Source: a virus. From it: 42,616 nt of DNA. Position numbers and translations under genes: made by a program. The notes under the pieces were generated by a model. The model was not told the origin of the DNA and ran no database searches. It was given only the letters and a program-made list of their open reading frames with translations. Positions 36,229 to 42,079 of the stretch are shown piece after piece; within the stretch, counting starts at the first letter, position 1, and each line of letters opens with the position of its first letter. The stretch covers positions 1-42,616 of the IMG/VR virus record IMGVR_UViG_3300034111_000709; one strand, 5' to 3'.

Positions 36229-36323
36229 CTTTCACCCTTCCCCCCGCTGCTTTCCTCCCTGTGCGGCGGGCAACTGCCGGGGCTTCGGCCTCGGCCTTTT
36301 ATTCCAATGTGAGTGACCCATGA
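36225..36323 (+). CDS. Possible 32-residue ORF bridging ParB and HNH-AP2 genes
   Basis: An ATG overlaps the ParB stop (ATGA) and the stop overlaps the next ATG (ATGA), so the 91-base gap is exactly filled by MTFTLPPAAFLPVRRATAG followed by a Ser/Ala-rich end. The strong terminator at 36276-36300 lies inside it. Translation through the stem could disrupt the terminator, making this an attenuation-type leader rather than a functional protein. Confidence 0.35.
   Translation: MTFTLPPAAFLPVRRATAGASASAFYSNVSDP
36276..36300 (+). terminator. Rho-independent terminator with TTCG tetraloop
   Basis: Eight-base stem GCCGGGGC / GCCTCGGC (one G-U pair) closed by a TTCG tetraloop, followed by CTTTTATT. 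This is a very stable hairpin 48 bases past the ParB stop, before the HNH-AP2 gene. Confidence 0.8.
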
Positions 36324-36829
36324 CAGGACCAATTCGACCGATACGCATTGAAGGCGACGTTGCATATGTGACGTTGACGCAAGGATATGAAGCCATCATC
36401 GACGCCGCCGATGTGCCGCTTGTTGAGGGGTTTAATTGGTGCGCCGTATGCCCCGGCCGAAAATTTTATGCAGCGCGGGGCAAGAAAGTAAACGGCAAAA
36501 TAAAGCAGATACTCATGCACCGCGTGATTATGAATACCCCAAACAAAATGGAGACAGACCATATCAATGGCGACGGCTTAGATAATAGGCGGGTCAACTT
36601 GCGGGTTGCTACCACTTCTCAAAACCAAATGAACAGAGGAGCGCCGGCAACCAACACTAGCGGTTTTAAGGGTGTCGCGTGGTATGAAAGAGACAAAAAA
36701 TGGCGCGCGCAAATTACGAATAACGGTTCTCGATGGTGGCTTGGCGATTTCGACACGCCAGAAGCCGCCCATTCCGCATATGTTGCCGCAAGCGAATTGC
36801 TGCACGGTGAATTTGCGAGGGCAGCATGA
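36320..36829 (+). CDS. HNH homing endonuclease with AP2 domain
   Basis: A 169-residue protein. The HNH part has MHRVI (His67), METDHINGDGLDNRRVNLR (Asp80, His81, Asn83, Asn89, Asn93). The AP2 DNA-binding part covers about 112-163 (NTSGFKGVAWYERDKKWRAQITNNGSRWWLGDFDTPEAAHSAYVAASELLHGEFA). Freestanding AP2-HNH enzymes are mobile elements of phage genomes. Base composition is visibly less GC-rich than its neighbours and it sits just behind a terminator, both signs of a late insertion. It overlaps the DnaA-like gene by four bases. Confidence 0.9.
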   Translation: MTGPIRPIRIEGDVAYVTLTQGYEAIIDAADVPLVEGFNWCAVCPGRKFYAARGKKVNGKIKQILMHRVIMNTPNKMETDHINGDGLDNRRVNLRVATTSQNQMNRGAPATNTSGFKGVAWYERDKKWRAQITNNGSRWWLGDFDTPEAAHSAYVAASELLHGEFARAA

Positions 36830-37395
36830 GCCTCGCAGACCACATCCCAACAGCCGCAGACCATGCAGCCCGTCGCGCTAGAATGGGCCTTGCACCAGCA
36901 GCCAGCAGCCCGGTTTTCATTCCGCGCGAACCGGCCAAAAAACCGGACATGGTTGCGGCAAAGCCAGCACCGCCCGCGCCCTTGGTTGACACGATTATCG
37001 CGAAATATCTTTACGTTTCAACGCCTCAAGGCCCCGTTGGGATGGCCGAAACCAAACAGCTTGTAGCGGCCATTGCCAAGCGCCACGGCGTGACGTTTGC
37101 CGACATTATGGGACCATGCCGGAGGGCTAAAATCGTGGCCGCTCGGTTCGAGGCTATCGTTGCTGTTGCGCAGGTTCGGTATGCGTGGAGCCTGCCCCAG
37201 CTTGGCCGGTTCTTTGGCGACCGCGACCACACCACAATCCTGCACGCCATGAGAACAATGGCCGTCAAAACAGGCGAGACCATTCGCGGTTATACGCCAG
37301 AAGCGGCGGCGGACGTGCTCGACCGGCAGCGCGATAAGAACCGCGACGCAATCAAGACCTACCGCAGCAAGCGCAATGCAAAGGTGGCATCGTGA
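36826..37395 (+). CDS. DnaA domain IV-like replication protein
   Basis: A 189-residue protein with a disordered start (residues 1-50) and then a DnaA C-terminal fold: AAIAKRHGVTFADIMGPCRRAKIVAARFEAIVAVAQVRYAWSLPQLGRFFGDRDHTTILHAMRTM in successive pieces (about 81-145). GDRDHTTILHA (131-141) equals the DnaA signature that reads DnaA boxes. No AAA+ domain is present, so it binds without ATP-driven unwinding, and the adjacent helicase may supply the motor. The C-terminus is basic (KTYRSKRNAK). It ends in a GTGA overlap with the helicase. Confidence 0.88.
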   Translation: MSLADHIPTAADHAARRARMGLAPAASSPVFIPREPAKKPDMVAAKPAPPAPLVDTIIAKYLYVSTPQGPVGMAETKQLVAAIAKRHGVTFADIMGPCRRAKIVAARFEAIVAVAQVRYAWSLPQLGRFFGDRDHTTILHAMRTMAVKTGETIRGYTPEAAADVLDRQRDKNRDAIKTYRSKRNAKVAS

Positions 37396-38789
37396 GCCTG
37401 ACCGATTACCGAAACCTTATTGCCAAGAGCCATGGCGCGTTTGTGCCGGTCGGCTTCGATGGTGACTTTGACCTTCCGGCCTCGCTGTTTCCGCACCAGA
37501 AGGCCGCTGTTGAGTTCAGCCTTCGCGCCGGGTCTAGTGCGATGTTCCTTGACACCGGACTGGGCAAGACACGTTCCGCCCTTGCATGGGGGCAGGAGGT
37601 TGTCAGCCGCACGAATAAGCCTGTCCTGATGCTGGCCCCTCTTGGCGTCACGCGCCAGCACAAGACCGAGGCTGACGACATCGGCATTGATGCCTGTGTT
37701 TCGCGTGACGGTGGACCGCAAGATGCGCGCATCGTCATCGCCAACTATGAGCGGCTGCACCTGTTCAACCCGTCCGACTTTTCCGGCATCATTCTTGATG
37801 AGAGTTCGATCCTCAAGAGCTTTTCAGGCCAGACCACAAAGCGGCTGATCGAGGCATTTGCCCGCACGCCTTACCGGCTGGCCTGCACTGCTACGCCAGC
37901 CCCGAATGACCACACCGAGCTTGGCACTCACGCCGAGTTCTTGGGCATCATGACACGTGATCAGATGCTTATGCGTTGGTTCCTGCATGACAGCGCAGAC
38001 ACCGGCACATGGCGCTTAAAAGGCCACGGCGTGCGCCCGTTCTGGGATTGGGTGGCGTCATGGGCAAGGTGCGTCAGCAAGCCTTCCGATCTGGGCTTTT
38101 CGGATGCCGGCTTTGACATGCCGGAACTGAACATGCACCGGCACCTAGTCGCGGCTGATCGCACAAAGGGCAAGGGCGAAGAGAAGGACGGGCAAGCCCA
38201 TCTGTTCCGGATGCCCGATATGTCCGCCACGTCCGTGCATCAGGAAAAGCGGCTGACATGCGAGGCTCGCGCTTCGATGGTTGCCGACATCGTGGCCAAC
38301 GAGCCAAACGAGCCATGGACGGTCTGGGTCGAGACTGATTACGACGCCGATGCCATCATGGCGGCAATACCTGGAGCCGTTGAGGTTCGCGGTTCGATGA
38401 CCGCCGAACAGAAGGAAGAGCGGCTAACGGCATTTACGCAAGGCCAGATCCGCGTCCTTGTGACGAAAGCCAGCATCGCAGGGTTCGGCCTGAACTGGCA
38501 GCATTGCGCACGCACTGTCTTTGCCGGGATGAGCTTTTCCTACGAGGCATTTTATCAGGCTGTTCGCCGGCATTGGCGCTTTCGCCAGACCCGCCCGGTC
38601 GATTGCCATGTTGTCTTTGCCGATACCGAAGCGGCCATCTGGGATGTTGTGAGCCGCAAGGCAGGAGACCACAACGCCATGAAACGCGAGATGACGCAGG
38701 CTATGGCCCGCGCCCATCGCACCGAAACCCGCCTTCATTCCTATGAACCCCGCAAGCAGGCGATTGTTCCTGCATGGATGATGTCATGA
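37392..38789 (+). CDS. SF2 (SNF2-like) DNA helicase
   Basis: A 465-residue protein with a GTG start overlapping the DnaA-like stop. N-terminal ATPase lobe: FPHQKAAVEF (Q-like), DTGLGKTRSA (54-63, Walker A), LAPLGVTRQ (Ia), LDESS (135-139, Walker B in DESS form), CTATPAPND (165-173, motif III). C-terminal lobe: VLVTKASIAGFGLNWQHC (V) and FYQAVRRHWRFRQ (VI, with the arginine fingers). It is shorter than cellular SNF2 proteins, as usual in phages. It lies upstream of and overlaps a DNA methylase gene, a pairing often seen in phages. Confidence 0.9.
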   Translation: MSLTDYRNLIAKSHGAFVPVGFDGDFDLPASLFPHQKAAVEFSLRAGSSAMFLDTGLGKTRSALAWGQEVVSRTNKPVLMLAPLGVTRQHKTEADDIGIDACVSRDGGPQDARIVIANYERLHLFNPSDFSGIILDESSILKSFSGQTTKRLIEAFARTPYRLACTATPAPNDHTELGTHAEFLGIMTRDQMLMRWFLHDSADTGTWRLKGHGVRPFWDWVASWARCVSKPSDLGFSDAGFDMPELNMHRHLVAADRTKGKGEEKDGQAHLFRMPDMSATSVHQEKRLTCEARASMVADIVANEPNEPWTVWVETDYDADAIMAAIPGAVEVRGSMTAEQKEERLTAFTQGQIRVLVTKASIAGFGLNWQHCARTVFAGMSFSYEAFYQAVRRHWRFRQTRPVDCHVVFADTEAAIWDVVSRKAGDHNAMKREMTQAMARAHRTETRLHSYEPRKQAIVPAWMMS

Positions 38790-39691
38790 CCAACGCAGTC
38801 CTCGACCAGTACATTTCCAACCGCTTCGCCGCATACAATGCCGACACGGTGGAATTTACCTCCACGATGCCGGATAACAGCGTCGGCCTGTCCGTCTATT
38901 CGCCGCCATTCTCGCAGCTTTATGTCTATTCCGAGAGCGAGCGCGACATGGGCAACGTGGCGGATCATGACGAGTTCGCAGAGCGCTATCGTTACCTTGT
39001 GCGTGAGCTTCTGCGCGTCACAAAACCCGGCAGGATTAGTGCCGTCCATTGTTCCGATCTGCCGACCAGCAAGCAGCGTGACGGCGTGATAGGGCTGTTC
39101 GATCTGCCGGGCCTTATCCGCCAGGTTCATGAGGATGAAGGCTGGGTTTACCATTCCCGCGTGACCATCTGGAAATGCCCCGTGGTCGAAATGACCCGCA
39201 CCAAGGCGCATGGCCTGCTTTACAAGACACTGCGCACCGATGGCAGCCGCGTTCGTGTCGGGATGCCTGATTATCTGATGGTGTTCCGCAAGGAAAGCGA
39301 CGGCAAGACGCCGGAGCCGGTGACGCATGATCCCGGTGTTTATCCTGTCTCATGGTGGCAGGAAGCGGCATCGCCGGTCTGGACCACGATCGACCAAACA
39401 GACGTTCTAAATGTCGCTGTTGCCCGCGATGACAAGGACGAGCGGCACCTTTGCCCGCTCCAGTTGGACGTGATCGAACGCGCTGTGCATCTGTGGAGCA
39501 ACACGGATGATCTGGTTTACTCGCCATTTATGGGCATCGGATCGGAAGGCTATGTGTCGATCAAGCACGGTCGCAGGTTCGCCGGCACCGAGCTAAAGCC
39601 CGCGTATTTCAAGCAGGCTGTCCGCAATCTCAAGATGGCAGAGGATACCGGCACGGAAGGCGATTTGGTGTCAAAGATGGTGGCCGCATGA
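38786..39691 (+). CDS. Amino-methyltransferase (adenine-N6 or cytosine-N4)
   Basis: 301 residues from the ATG that overlaps the helicase stop (ATGA); an in-frame ATG 12 bases earlier is possible. Motif IV is YSPPF (near residue 34), the SPPY/F variant. Motif I comes late in the protein as SPFMGIGSEGYVSIKHGRRFAGTELKP (about 250-277), giving the beta-group order. Middle: DLPTSKQRDGVIGLFDLPGLIRQVHEDEGWVYHSRVTIWK. It probably methylates phage DNA to escape host restriction; no cognate nuclease is present. The following stop overlaps RusA. Confidence 0.88.
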   Translation: MTNAVLDQYISNRFAAYNADTVEFTSTMPDNSVGLSVYSPPFSQLYVYSESERDMGNVADHDEFAERYRYLVRELLRVTKPGRISAVHCSDLPTSKQRDGVIGLFDLPGLIRQVHEDEGWVYHSRVTIWKCPVVEMTRTKAHGLLYKTLRTDGSRVRVGMPDYLMVFRKESDGKTPEPVTHDPGVYPVSWWQEAASPVWTTIDQTDVLNVAVARDDKDERHLCPLQLDVIERAVHLWSNTDDLVYSPFMGIGSEGYVSIKHGRRFAGTELKPAYFKQAVRNLKMAEDTGTEGDLVSKMVAA

Positions 39692-40047
39692 TGACCGTCA
39701 CACTCGGCTGGCCGTCCCGCGCACTATCACCCAACGCACGCACCCACTGGGCAGCGCTGGCGAGGGCGAGGAAGGCTGCTCGGAAGGAAGGGTTCTACGC
39801 AGCCCGTGCGGCTGGCGTGCTTGCTGGCGTGTCGTCTGTGTGCATCCAGGTTACGTTCGTTCCACCGGATGCCAGACGCCGCGATTGCGACAATTTGGTT
39901 AGCCAAATAAAGGGCCAAATTGACGGCATATCAGACGCTATCAGAATCGACGATAGCCGCTGGATCTGGGCCGCTCCTGTCATGGCCGCGCCTGAGAAAC
40001 CGGGCCGCGTCGTCGTCACGCTTACGCCTGTTGAGGTGGTGGCATGA
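39688..40047 (+). CDS. rusA: RusA-type Holliday junction resolvase
   Basis: A 119-residue protein with the RusA active site: RRRDCDNLVSQIKGQIDG (Asp66, Asp68) and ISDAIRIDDSRW (Asp88/Asp89), preceded by the beta strand VCIQVTFVPP. It cuts Holliday junctions made in replication and recombination so that branched phage DNA can be packaged. Length agrees with the family (~120). Its ATG overlaps the methylase stop and a second ATG lies three bases downstream. Confidence 0.92.
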   Translation: MMTVTLGWPSRALSPNARTHWAALARARKAARKEGFYAARAAGVLAGVSSVCIQVTFVPPDARRRDCDNLVSQIKGQIDGISDAIRIDDSRWIWAAPVMAAPEKPGRVVVTLTPVEVVA

Positions 40048-40682
40048 GTGTCGCGGCCTTTATTGCAGACATGGTGCGCGCTGGCGTCGATCCTGATTTG
40101 ATCGGTCGGGCAGCCGAGCTTTTGGCCGCGCGTGAGCCTGTCGCAGTTAAGGACGATCAAGCCGAACGTCGCCGCGCATCTGATCGTGAACGCAAGGCAT
40201 TCCGCAGAATTCCGCAGAATTCCGCAGACACCCCTTCCTCCCCCTTTATTCCCCCCGCTCTTTCCCCCACACCCCCTATCTCACCCCCCTATAATCCCCC
40301 ACCAACCCCTTCTCTGTCGGGTCCGGCTTCGCCAGACACCGACCGTGCGCCAGTCAAGGCTTCATCGAAGGCAAAGGCAGGATACACCCCAGAGTTCGAG
40401 TTGGTCTGGTCCGAATGGCCGAAAAGCCCAACCGAAAGCAAAAAGCTGGCATTCGACCGCTTTGCTCGCCTTTCCAAGCCTGACCGGGATGCGTGTTTTG
40501 ACGGCGCAATGGCTCAGACGATGTGGCTGGAGGCTGAAACCGAACGCCGCAAAGGACGTGATCCACCCCCTCGGTTGCACCTTTCGACGTTCATCAGCGA
40601 ACGGCGATGGGAGAACCTGCTGAACACCGAATTCAACCGATACGGACGCACCCCATGGCCAACGACGCAAGCGCAACGATGA
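40044..40682 (+). CDS. Replication protein-like with Pro-rich linker
   Basis: A 212-residue protein. Residues 1-60 are helical (FIADMVRAGVDPDLIGRAAELLAA, ERRRASDRERKAFRR). Residues about 62-100 are a Ser/Pro linker from an extreme C-rich stretch. The C-terminal domain reads YTPEFELVWSEWPKSPTESKKLAFDRFARLSKPD...LHLSTFISERRWEN, a pattern found in phage replication accessory or helicase-loader proteins. It overlaps RusA by four bases and the next gene by four. An in-frame block of three 10-base DNA repeats is at 40199-40228. Confidence 0.75.
   Translation: MSVAAFIADMVRAGVDPDLIGRAAELLAAREPVAVKDDQAERRRASDRERKAFRRIPQNSADTPSSPFIPPALSPTPPISPPYNPPPTPSLSGPASPDTDRAPVKASSKAKAGYTPEFELVWSEWPKSPTESKKLAFDRFARLSKPDRDACFDGAMAQTMWLEAETERRKGRDPPPRLHLSTFISERRWENLLNTEFNRYGRTPWPTTQAQR
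40199..40228 (+). repeat. Three perfect 10-bp direct repeats (iteron-like)
   Basis: ATTCCGCAGA is repeated three times without spacer, followed by a C-rich, pyrimidine-rich run to about 40310. Because the period is not a multiple of three, each copy is read in a different frame, so conservation is at DNA level. Candidate origin or protein-binding block. Confidence 0.75.
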
Positions 40683-41451: not shown

Positions 41452-41798
41452 ACAGTTTGTCATGGATGATTTACCTCGCAAGCATTGCGGGGAGTTTATC
41501 AATCGCCTTAGTGGCGGTAGGCATCGCTCTCATTATAGGCGGCGTGGTCTGCGTGATGAGGGTCGATCTTGATAACATCGGACGCGAAAAGAAACTTGTA
41601 TGGCCTCGCTGGCCGTTTCTCGTCGCTGCTCCTTTGTTCATATTTGCCGCACTGCTCCCAAGTGAAAGAGCGGTTTATCTAATCGGCGCTTCTCAAATGG
41701 GCGAGAAGGTCATCGAAGACCCGGCAACCGCTGAAATGATGCGCGACGTTCGGGAAATTATCAGCAGCAAACTCAAGGAAATGAAGGCGAAAAAATGA
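41448..41798 (+). CDS. Two-pass membrane protein, 116 residues
   Basis: A GTG start (GTGA overlap) with an AAGGAG ribosome binding site nine bases upstream. Two membrane helices: MIYLASIAGSLSIALVAVGIALIIGGVVCVM (about 7-37) and WPFLVAAPLFIFAALLP (about 52-68). The soluble C-terminus is charged (MGEKVIEDPATAEMMRDVREIISSKLKEMKAKK). It could be an early envelope-targeting or exclusion protein. Its stop overlaps the next start by ATGA. Confidence 0.78.
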   Translation: MNSLSWMIYLASIAGSLSIALVAVGIALIIGGVVCVMRVDLDNIGREKKLVWPRWPFLVAAPLFIFAALLPSERAVYLIGASQMGEKVIEDPATAEMMRDVREIISSKLKEMKAKK

Positions 41799-42079
41799 GC
41801 ACACGCATGGACATCAAAAGCTGGCGCAAGTCCCGTAACGGCAAGGCATACGCCATCCGCATCGGCAGCACATGGACCAACGACAAGGGCGTTACCTACC
41901 TTGAGTTCGACGCCCTGCCATTGCCAGATGAGCAAGGCCGCGTGTCGTGTTTTCTGGAAGAGCCACGCGAACGGGCAGAGCCGGGCGTGCAGGGCTTTGC
42001 GCGTCAGATGGCACCTAGCGGCGCTGGCAAGCCGTCGCAGCTTAACGACAGCATCCCATTCGCGCCGGAGTGGCGCTGA
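41795..42079 (+). CDS. Hypothetical protein, 94 residues
   Basis: Starts MDIKSWRKSRNGKAYAIRIGSTWTNDKGVTYLEFDALPLPDEQGRVSCFLEEPRE (after five preceding residues), a beta-rich small protein whose SWRKSRNGKAYAIRIG..W.NDKG pattern appears in several phage proteins of unknown role. The Pro-rich C-terminus ends FAPEWR. It overlaps the previous stop by ATGA and the following micro-gene by one base (TGATG). Presumably soluble. Confidence 0.78.
   Translation: MSTRMDIKSWRKSRNGKAYAIRIGSTWTNDKGVTYLEFDALPLPDEQGRVSCFLEEPRERAEPGVQGFARQMAPSGAGKPSQLNDSIPFAPEWR

Follow-up and report, generated by a model that had tools for sequence, protein, structure and literature searches.

The window analysed here, a virus record of 42,616 bases from IMG/VR, carries a gene for a small protein that has the DNA-reading domain of DnaA (domain IV) and lacks the AAA+ motor. 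According to a structural model, domain IV is predicted to be flanked by a short helix at the N-terminus, a linker without order and a basic C-terminal helix. The best single explanation, to which we give a probability of roughly 0.45, is that this stand-alone domain IV binds DnaA boxes of the host and competes with host DnaA. The protein would bind TTATNCACA-like sites in the manner of host DnaA, and its main targets would be oriC and DnaA-regulated promoters on the host chromosome. A reader unable to bind ATP or to assemble into a filament would compete for these boxes with DnaA; in infection, host initiation would then be lowered, or DnaA-controlled transcription changed. We infer the binding to host sites, and the same applies to DNA binding as such, to its specificity and to the effect on the host. 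Occupancy of host oriC by the protein is consistent with the data.

Phages can stop host replication through the binding of replication proteins; a copy of the DNA-reading head of the host initiator would instead compete at the DNA. If this were shown, DnaA boxes could be blocked with a tool that is easy to express, and a group of phage proteins whose current, perhaps mistaken, annotation is that of replication initiators would gain a function.

Domain architecture and DNA-reading residues

The sole Pfam domain in the protein is Bac_DnaA_C (PF08299; 50.7 bits against a cut-off of 31.5, E 1.8e-13). The protein also matches PHROG 27829, 'DnaA-like replication initiation protein', over nearly the whole length of the profile (positions 2-65 of 72; E 3.9e-10, PHROGs being without curated cut-offs). 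NCBIfam models of DnaA align with its C-terminal part alone, far under their full-length cut-offs; the full-length DnaA model TIGR00362 is not reached (46.1 versus 343.9 bits). The DnaA AAA+ domain (PF00308) was not found by Pfam search in the protein or anywhere in the window. The earlier note had read GDRDHTTILHA as the signature of a DnaA domain IV without AAA+ ATPase, and this is borne out by the PF08299 match above its cut-off, by the predicted fold and by the absence of PF00308. A comparison with models of defence systems gave no match for the protein. Among relatives the gene is under purifying selection (omega of 0.11-0.21 for the domain), and the open reading frame is therefore a real gene.

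Table 1. Positions of the DnaA_C gene, its parts and the genes that follow it in the window.
Feature	Position	Strand	Evidence or remark
DnaA_C gene, 189-aa protein holding domain IV only	36826..37395	+	ORF ATG to TGA; PF08299; PHROG 27829; purifying selection
Predicted short N-terminal helix, residues 10-19	36853..36882	+	Block pLDDT 78
Bac_DnaA_C (DnaA domain IV) region, residues 78-144	37057..37257	+	Pfam; predicted fold
GDRDHTTILHA recognition-helix signature, residues 131-141	37216..37248	+	Sequence; contact-position comparison
Predicted basic C-terminal helix, residues 158-188	37297..37389	+	Moderate confidence, block pLDDT 57-71
SF2 (SNF2-like) helicase	37392..38789	+	Helicase_C 34.3 bits; context, not judged part of DnaA_C function
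N6/N4 DNA methyltransferase, accompanies SF2 gene	38774..39691	+	99% identical in relatives
Gene distantly matching phage replication initiation proteins	40044..40682	+	phrog_270, E 1.2e-5 (weak)

An AlphaFold2 model of the protein, built from 44 sequences, is confident across residues 71-150 (block pLDDT 79-95). In this model, the domain IV fold is predicted together with its basic loop and helix-turn-helix. Its top matches by structure are without exception DnaA domain IV (Z values of 9.3-11.6), well ahead of unrelated rows, the first of which has 5.7; they include 8btg_C (VIA Z 11.6, 80 residues aligned, rmsd 2.3) and 1j1v_A (VIA Z 11.4, 78 aligned, rmsd 2.4). By sequence, the closest PDB entry is 1j1v, E. 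coli DnaA domain IV on DnaA-box DNA. The protein thus shares with DnaA domain IV (PF08299; 1j1v, 3pvp, 8btg) the fold and all eight of the base-contact residues listed below. It is unlike DnaA in that domains I-III are missing, while an N-terminal helix, a linker and a C-terminal helix have been added; within the domain, there is a one-residue insertion close to the basic loop, and D replaces G at E. coli position 431.

In E. coli DnaA, base-specific contacts are made by residues 399, 423, 432-435 and 438-439 (PMC5043019). Their counterparts in the window protein are R99, P124, R133-D134-H135-T136, L139 and H140, each of which is the same as in E. coli (R399, P423, R432-T435, L438, H439) and in the five Rhizobiales DnaAs compared. 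Since all eight positions are identical, reading of DnaA boxes is plausible, and DNA binding of the DnaA-box type is likely for the window protein. R99, R107, D134 and H135 are invariant across 14 diverse phage and plasmid proteins, a set chosen without regard to the signature. The register is sure for R99 and ambiguous for R107, owing to the residue inserted nearby; this insertion could also mean that the protein acts on diverged sites, which is a point against the main reading. The viral contigs behind alignment A3 were collected with a DNA pattern for FGDRDHTT, so the conservation of that stretch in A3 is built in, and A2 alone is valid there.

Candidate DnaA boxes on phage DNA

Exact TTATNCACA was not found in the 42,616 bases of the window, nor in the 40.6 kb relative G003. 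As 0.3-0.5 exact boxes would be expected by chance over 42 kb, their absence from the window is unremarkable. Sites with at most one mismatch from TTATCCACA number 1 in the window versus 4.2 in shuffles, and the core TNCACA seemed twofold depleted there in comparison with dinucleotide shuffles. A third-order Markov model, however, predicts 43.1 cores in the window, where 43 are counted. This accounts for the entire number, leaving no sign of site avoidance, and the idea that the phage avoids DnaA boxes was dropped.

Sites with up to two mismatches form no unusual cluster in the window relative to permuted consensus patterns, and iterons were not found between 33 and 42.6 kb. Across 45 phage records with DnaA_C genes (the window and 44 others), 13 exact boxes were counted, versus 8 for a reversed control pattern; box clusters were not found in these records, the maximum being three boxes per record. 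The search for DnaA boxes in the phage that had been proposed earlier therefore came out negative, both for exact boxes in the window and for clusters in the 45 records. An origin on the phage marked by clustered boxes or by iterons was accordingly rejected, clusters being missing from the 45 records and iterons from 33-42.6 kb of the window, and a canonical phage origin looks unlikely from these sequences. In the alphaproteobacterial phages of a published study, DnaA sites were likewise not unevenly distributed (PMC9437464). Because clusters are missing from all 45 records, the window included, canonical boxes in the phage genome are probably not what the protein chiefly targets, and its main targets would most likely lie on the host chromosome.

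In relatives L005-L008, TTATTCAGA, one mismatch from a DnaA box, is present 17 bases 5' of the DnaA_C start (L005 7984, L007 6234, L008 1281); these relatives are without the HNH gene described in the next section. The site could be autoregulatory or due to chance. It is not present upstream of DnaA_C in the window.

Gene neighbourhood and alternative roles

Directly upstream of DnaA_C, at 36320-36829 of the window, lies an HNH-AP2 endonuclease gene. It is 60-100% identical in L002-L004, was not found in L005-L008, and is probably a mobile insertion. In L007, the counterpart of window 41795-42079 is followed by the counterpart of 34-606; since genes of both window ends are joined there, the window probably represents an almost entire genome that is circularly permuted. 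The integrase family PF00589 was not found in the window. The relatives of its terminase and of DnaA_C point to a putative host in the Rhizobiales.

The order DnaA_C, SF2 helicase, methyltransferase, RusA is common to the window, L003 and L005-L008; in the window, the end of DnaA_C and the beginning of SF2 share 4 bases. Such an overlap suggests coupled translation and would suit the proposal, made in the earlier note, that DnaA_C places the adjoining SF2 helicase on a phage origin. The helicase itself is real, as its Helicase_C match indicates (Table 1), but its recruitment by DnaA_C is highly improbable. In L002, whose DnaA_C is 98.9% identical to that of the window, SF2 and methyltransferase are missing and RusA comes directly after DnaA_C; in L004, genes for ParB and PAPS-reductase stand where the two would be; and the 45 records offer no box cluster. 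SF2 and methyltransferase, moreover, keep an identity of about 99% between phages in which that of DnaA_C is 80-92%, with differences of up to 20%, which identifies the pair as a separately moving cassette. On these comparisons DnaA_C appears as the more constant member, with a role that is independent of SF2 and of any single initiator. Next in likelihood after competition at host boxes, though tentative, is that the protein is an accessory factor or regulator working at diverged or single sites of the phage's own DNA, for instance as a transcription regulator of early or replication genes or as an origin helper. The window carries other replication genes, including an initiator-like one, and DnaA_C lies in one strand-coherent run with the helicase, methyltransferase, RusA and initiator-like genes; this location in a replication and recombination module also fits a role on phage DNA, and is a further point against the main reading. 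In other phages, similar genes adjoin DUF1376, RusA, single-strand annealing or DNA polymerase genes, and the TTATTCAGA site of L005-L008 may be counted on the same side. Its absence upstream in the window argues the other way, as do the lack of iterons and the finding that box-like sites are not clustered beyond permuted controls. In L008, a different initiator family (phrog_3729) occupies the position of the 40044..40682 gene; this exchange of the initiator-like gene while DnaA_C stays also speaks against a role on phage DNA, and shows that DnaA_C is not tied to one initiator.

Several otherwise distant phage DnaA_C proteins have a short N-terminal motif in common, approximately LxxHYxxVRxRL (HYxxVRxRL); its bearers are L009 (7731-8387), L014 (9821-10372), L026, L027 (5977-6441), L031 (5737-6231), L034, L064 and L086. 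The pattern is present in 9 of 52 representatives, versus a mean of 0.1 for shuffled N-termini. Because it came from the same data, the ranking of held-out proteins is the fairer test: a motif model trained on four of the bearers places held-out DnaA_C proteins at or near the top of 11,077 ORFs, with L034, L064, L026 and L035 as independent cases. In these distant members, the motif is possibly a docking segment. It would acquire a central role if binding to host boxes served to bring host factors to phage DNA, or to shield promoters essential to the phage, rather than to inhibit DnaA, with the N-terminal helix as a docking motif. We consider this improbable. The recurrence of the motif and the held-out ranking favour it, as does the conservation of residues 1-23 in the window family, which in the most diverged relative, L008, exceeds that of the drifting linker; yet the motif model does not pick out the window protein. 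The presence of HYxxVRxRL in the window protein was rejected, given that its N-terminus does not score. Domain-IV-only proteins of this kind might together make up a widespread phage strategy for taking over the DnaA-box network of the host. In it, a copy of the host's origin reader, free of the ATPase and fitted with a docking segment, would block DnaA sites or reprogram them, alongside phage copies of other alphaproteobacterial cell-cycle regulators; so broad a generalisation is doubtful.

Related proteins in phages, plasmids and chromosomes

Proteins consisting of domain IV only occur in phages annotated from Rhizobium, Bradyrhizobium, Sulfitobacter, Pelagibacter, Synechococcus and Microcystis, and also on alphaproteobacterial plasmids; of 62 viral stretches that contain the FGDRDHTT pattern, the majority hold such proteins. 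Many viral proteins in BFVD/UniProt are named 'Chromosomal replication initiator, DnaA C-terminal' (uncultured Caudovirales phage), so the kind is already known in databases. Named examples are gp62 of Sulfitobacter phage phiGT1, QIG70462.1 of Rhizobium phage RHph_N28_2 and gp20 of Pelagibacter phage HTVC034P. Like the window protein, phage proteins of this kind are small, have the same single domain and are often located in early or replication modules. They are unlike it in their N-terminal parts, and identity (about 30-40%) is confined to the domain. In a literature search, for which most subscription journals were outside reach, no work on the function of any phage protein of this kind came up. 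The window protein hence adds to a kind of phage protein that is annotated already (PHROG 27829) and apparently not previously tested.

Domain-IV-only proteins are also encoded on Rhizobiales chromosomes, as 'hypothetical protein' entries that are PRK06030-like by likeness. They share with the window protein the small size, the Pfam domain and the lack of an ATPase, but in all four that were compared the H of DHTT is replaced by R and proline 423 is lost. Capture of such a chromosomal protein by the phage was rejected, both on account of this R in the reading helix and because the window protein misses the PRK06030 cut-off (16 versus 136 bits). About 108 of 150 genomes sampled from this one order have a second Bac_DnaA_C protein besides DnaA. 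Most of the 13 such proteins examined (L137-L149) have RDRTT, not RDHTT, in the reading helix, which suggests a changed specificity.

Another comparison is offered by YfdR, from a cryptic prophage of E. coli. YfdR is reported to be a prophage product tied to reduced host replication initiation; it is set apart from the window protein in that it is described as binding the DnaA protein and not as having the DNA-reading domain of DnaA (PMC4776307).

The phages and plasmids that carry DnaA_C often encode GcrA or GapR as well. Both are alphaproteobacterial cell-cycle regulators. GcrA was found in 11 and GapR in 13 of 46 phage and plasmid records, a count that covers DnaA_C-carrying records alone and includes some near-duplicates; among the records concerned are G155, G172, G183, G184, PP438432.1, OP596614.1 and NZ_CP063402.1. 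Neither regulator is present in the window.

Two further arrangements of the domain were observed in phages. L086 and L035 encode a protein with two tandem DnaA_C-like domains, the first of which has a degenerate signature. In L010 (579-3498), a DnaA_C gene is located in an apparent Mu-like phage, near open reading frames that by eye resemble GemA and Mor.
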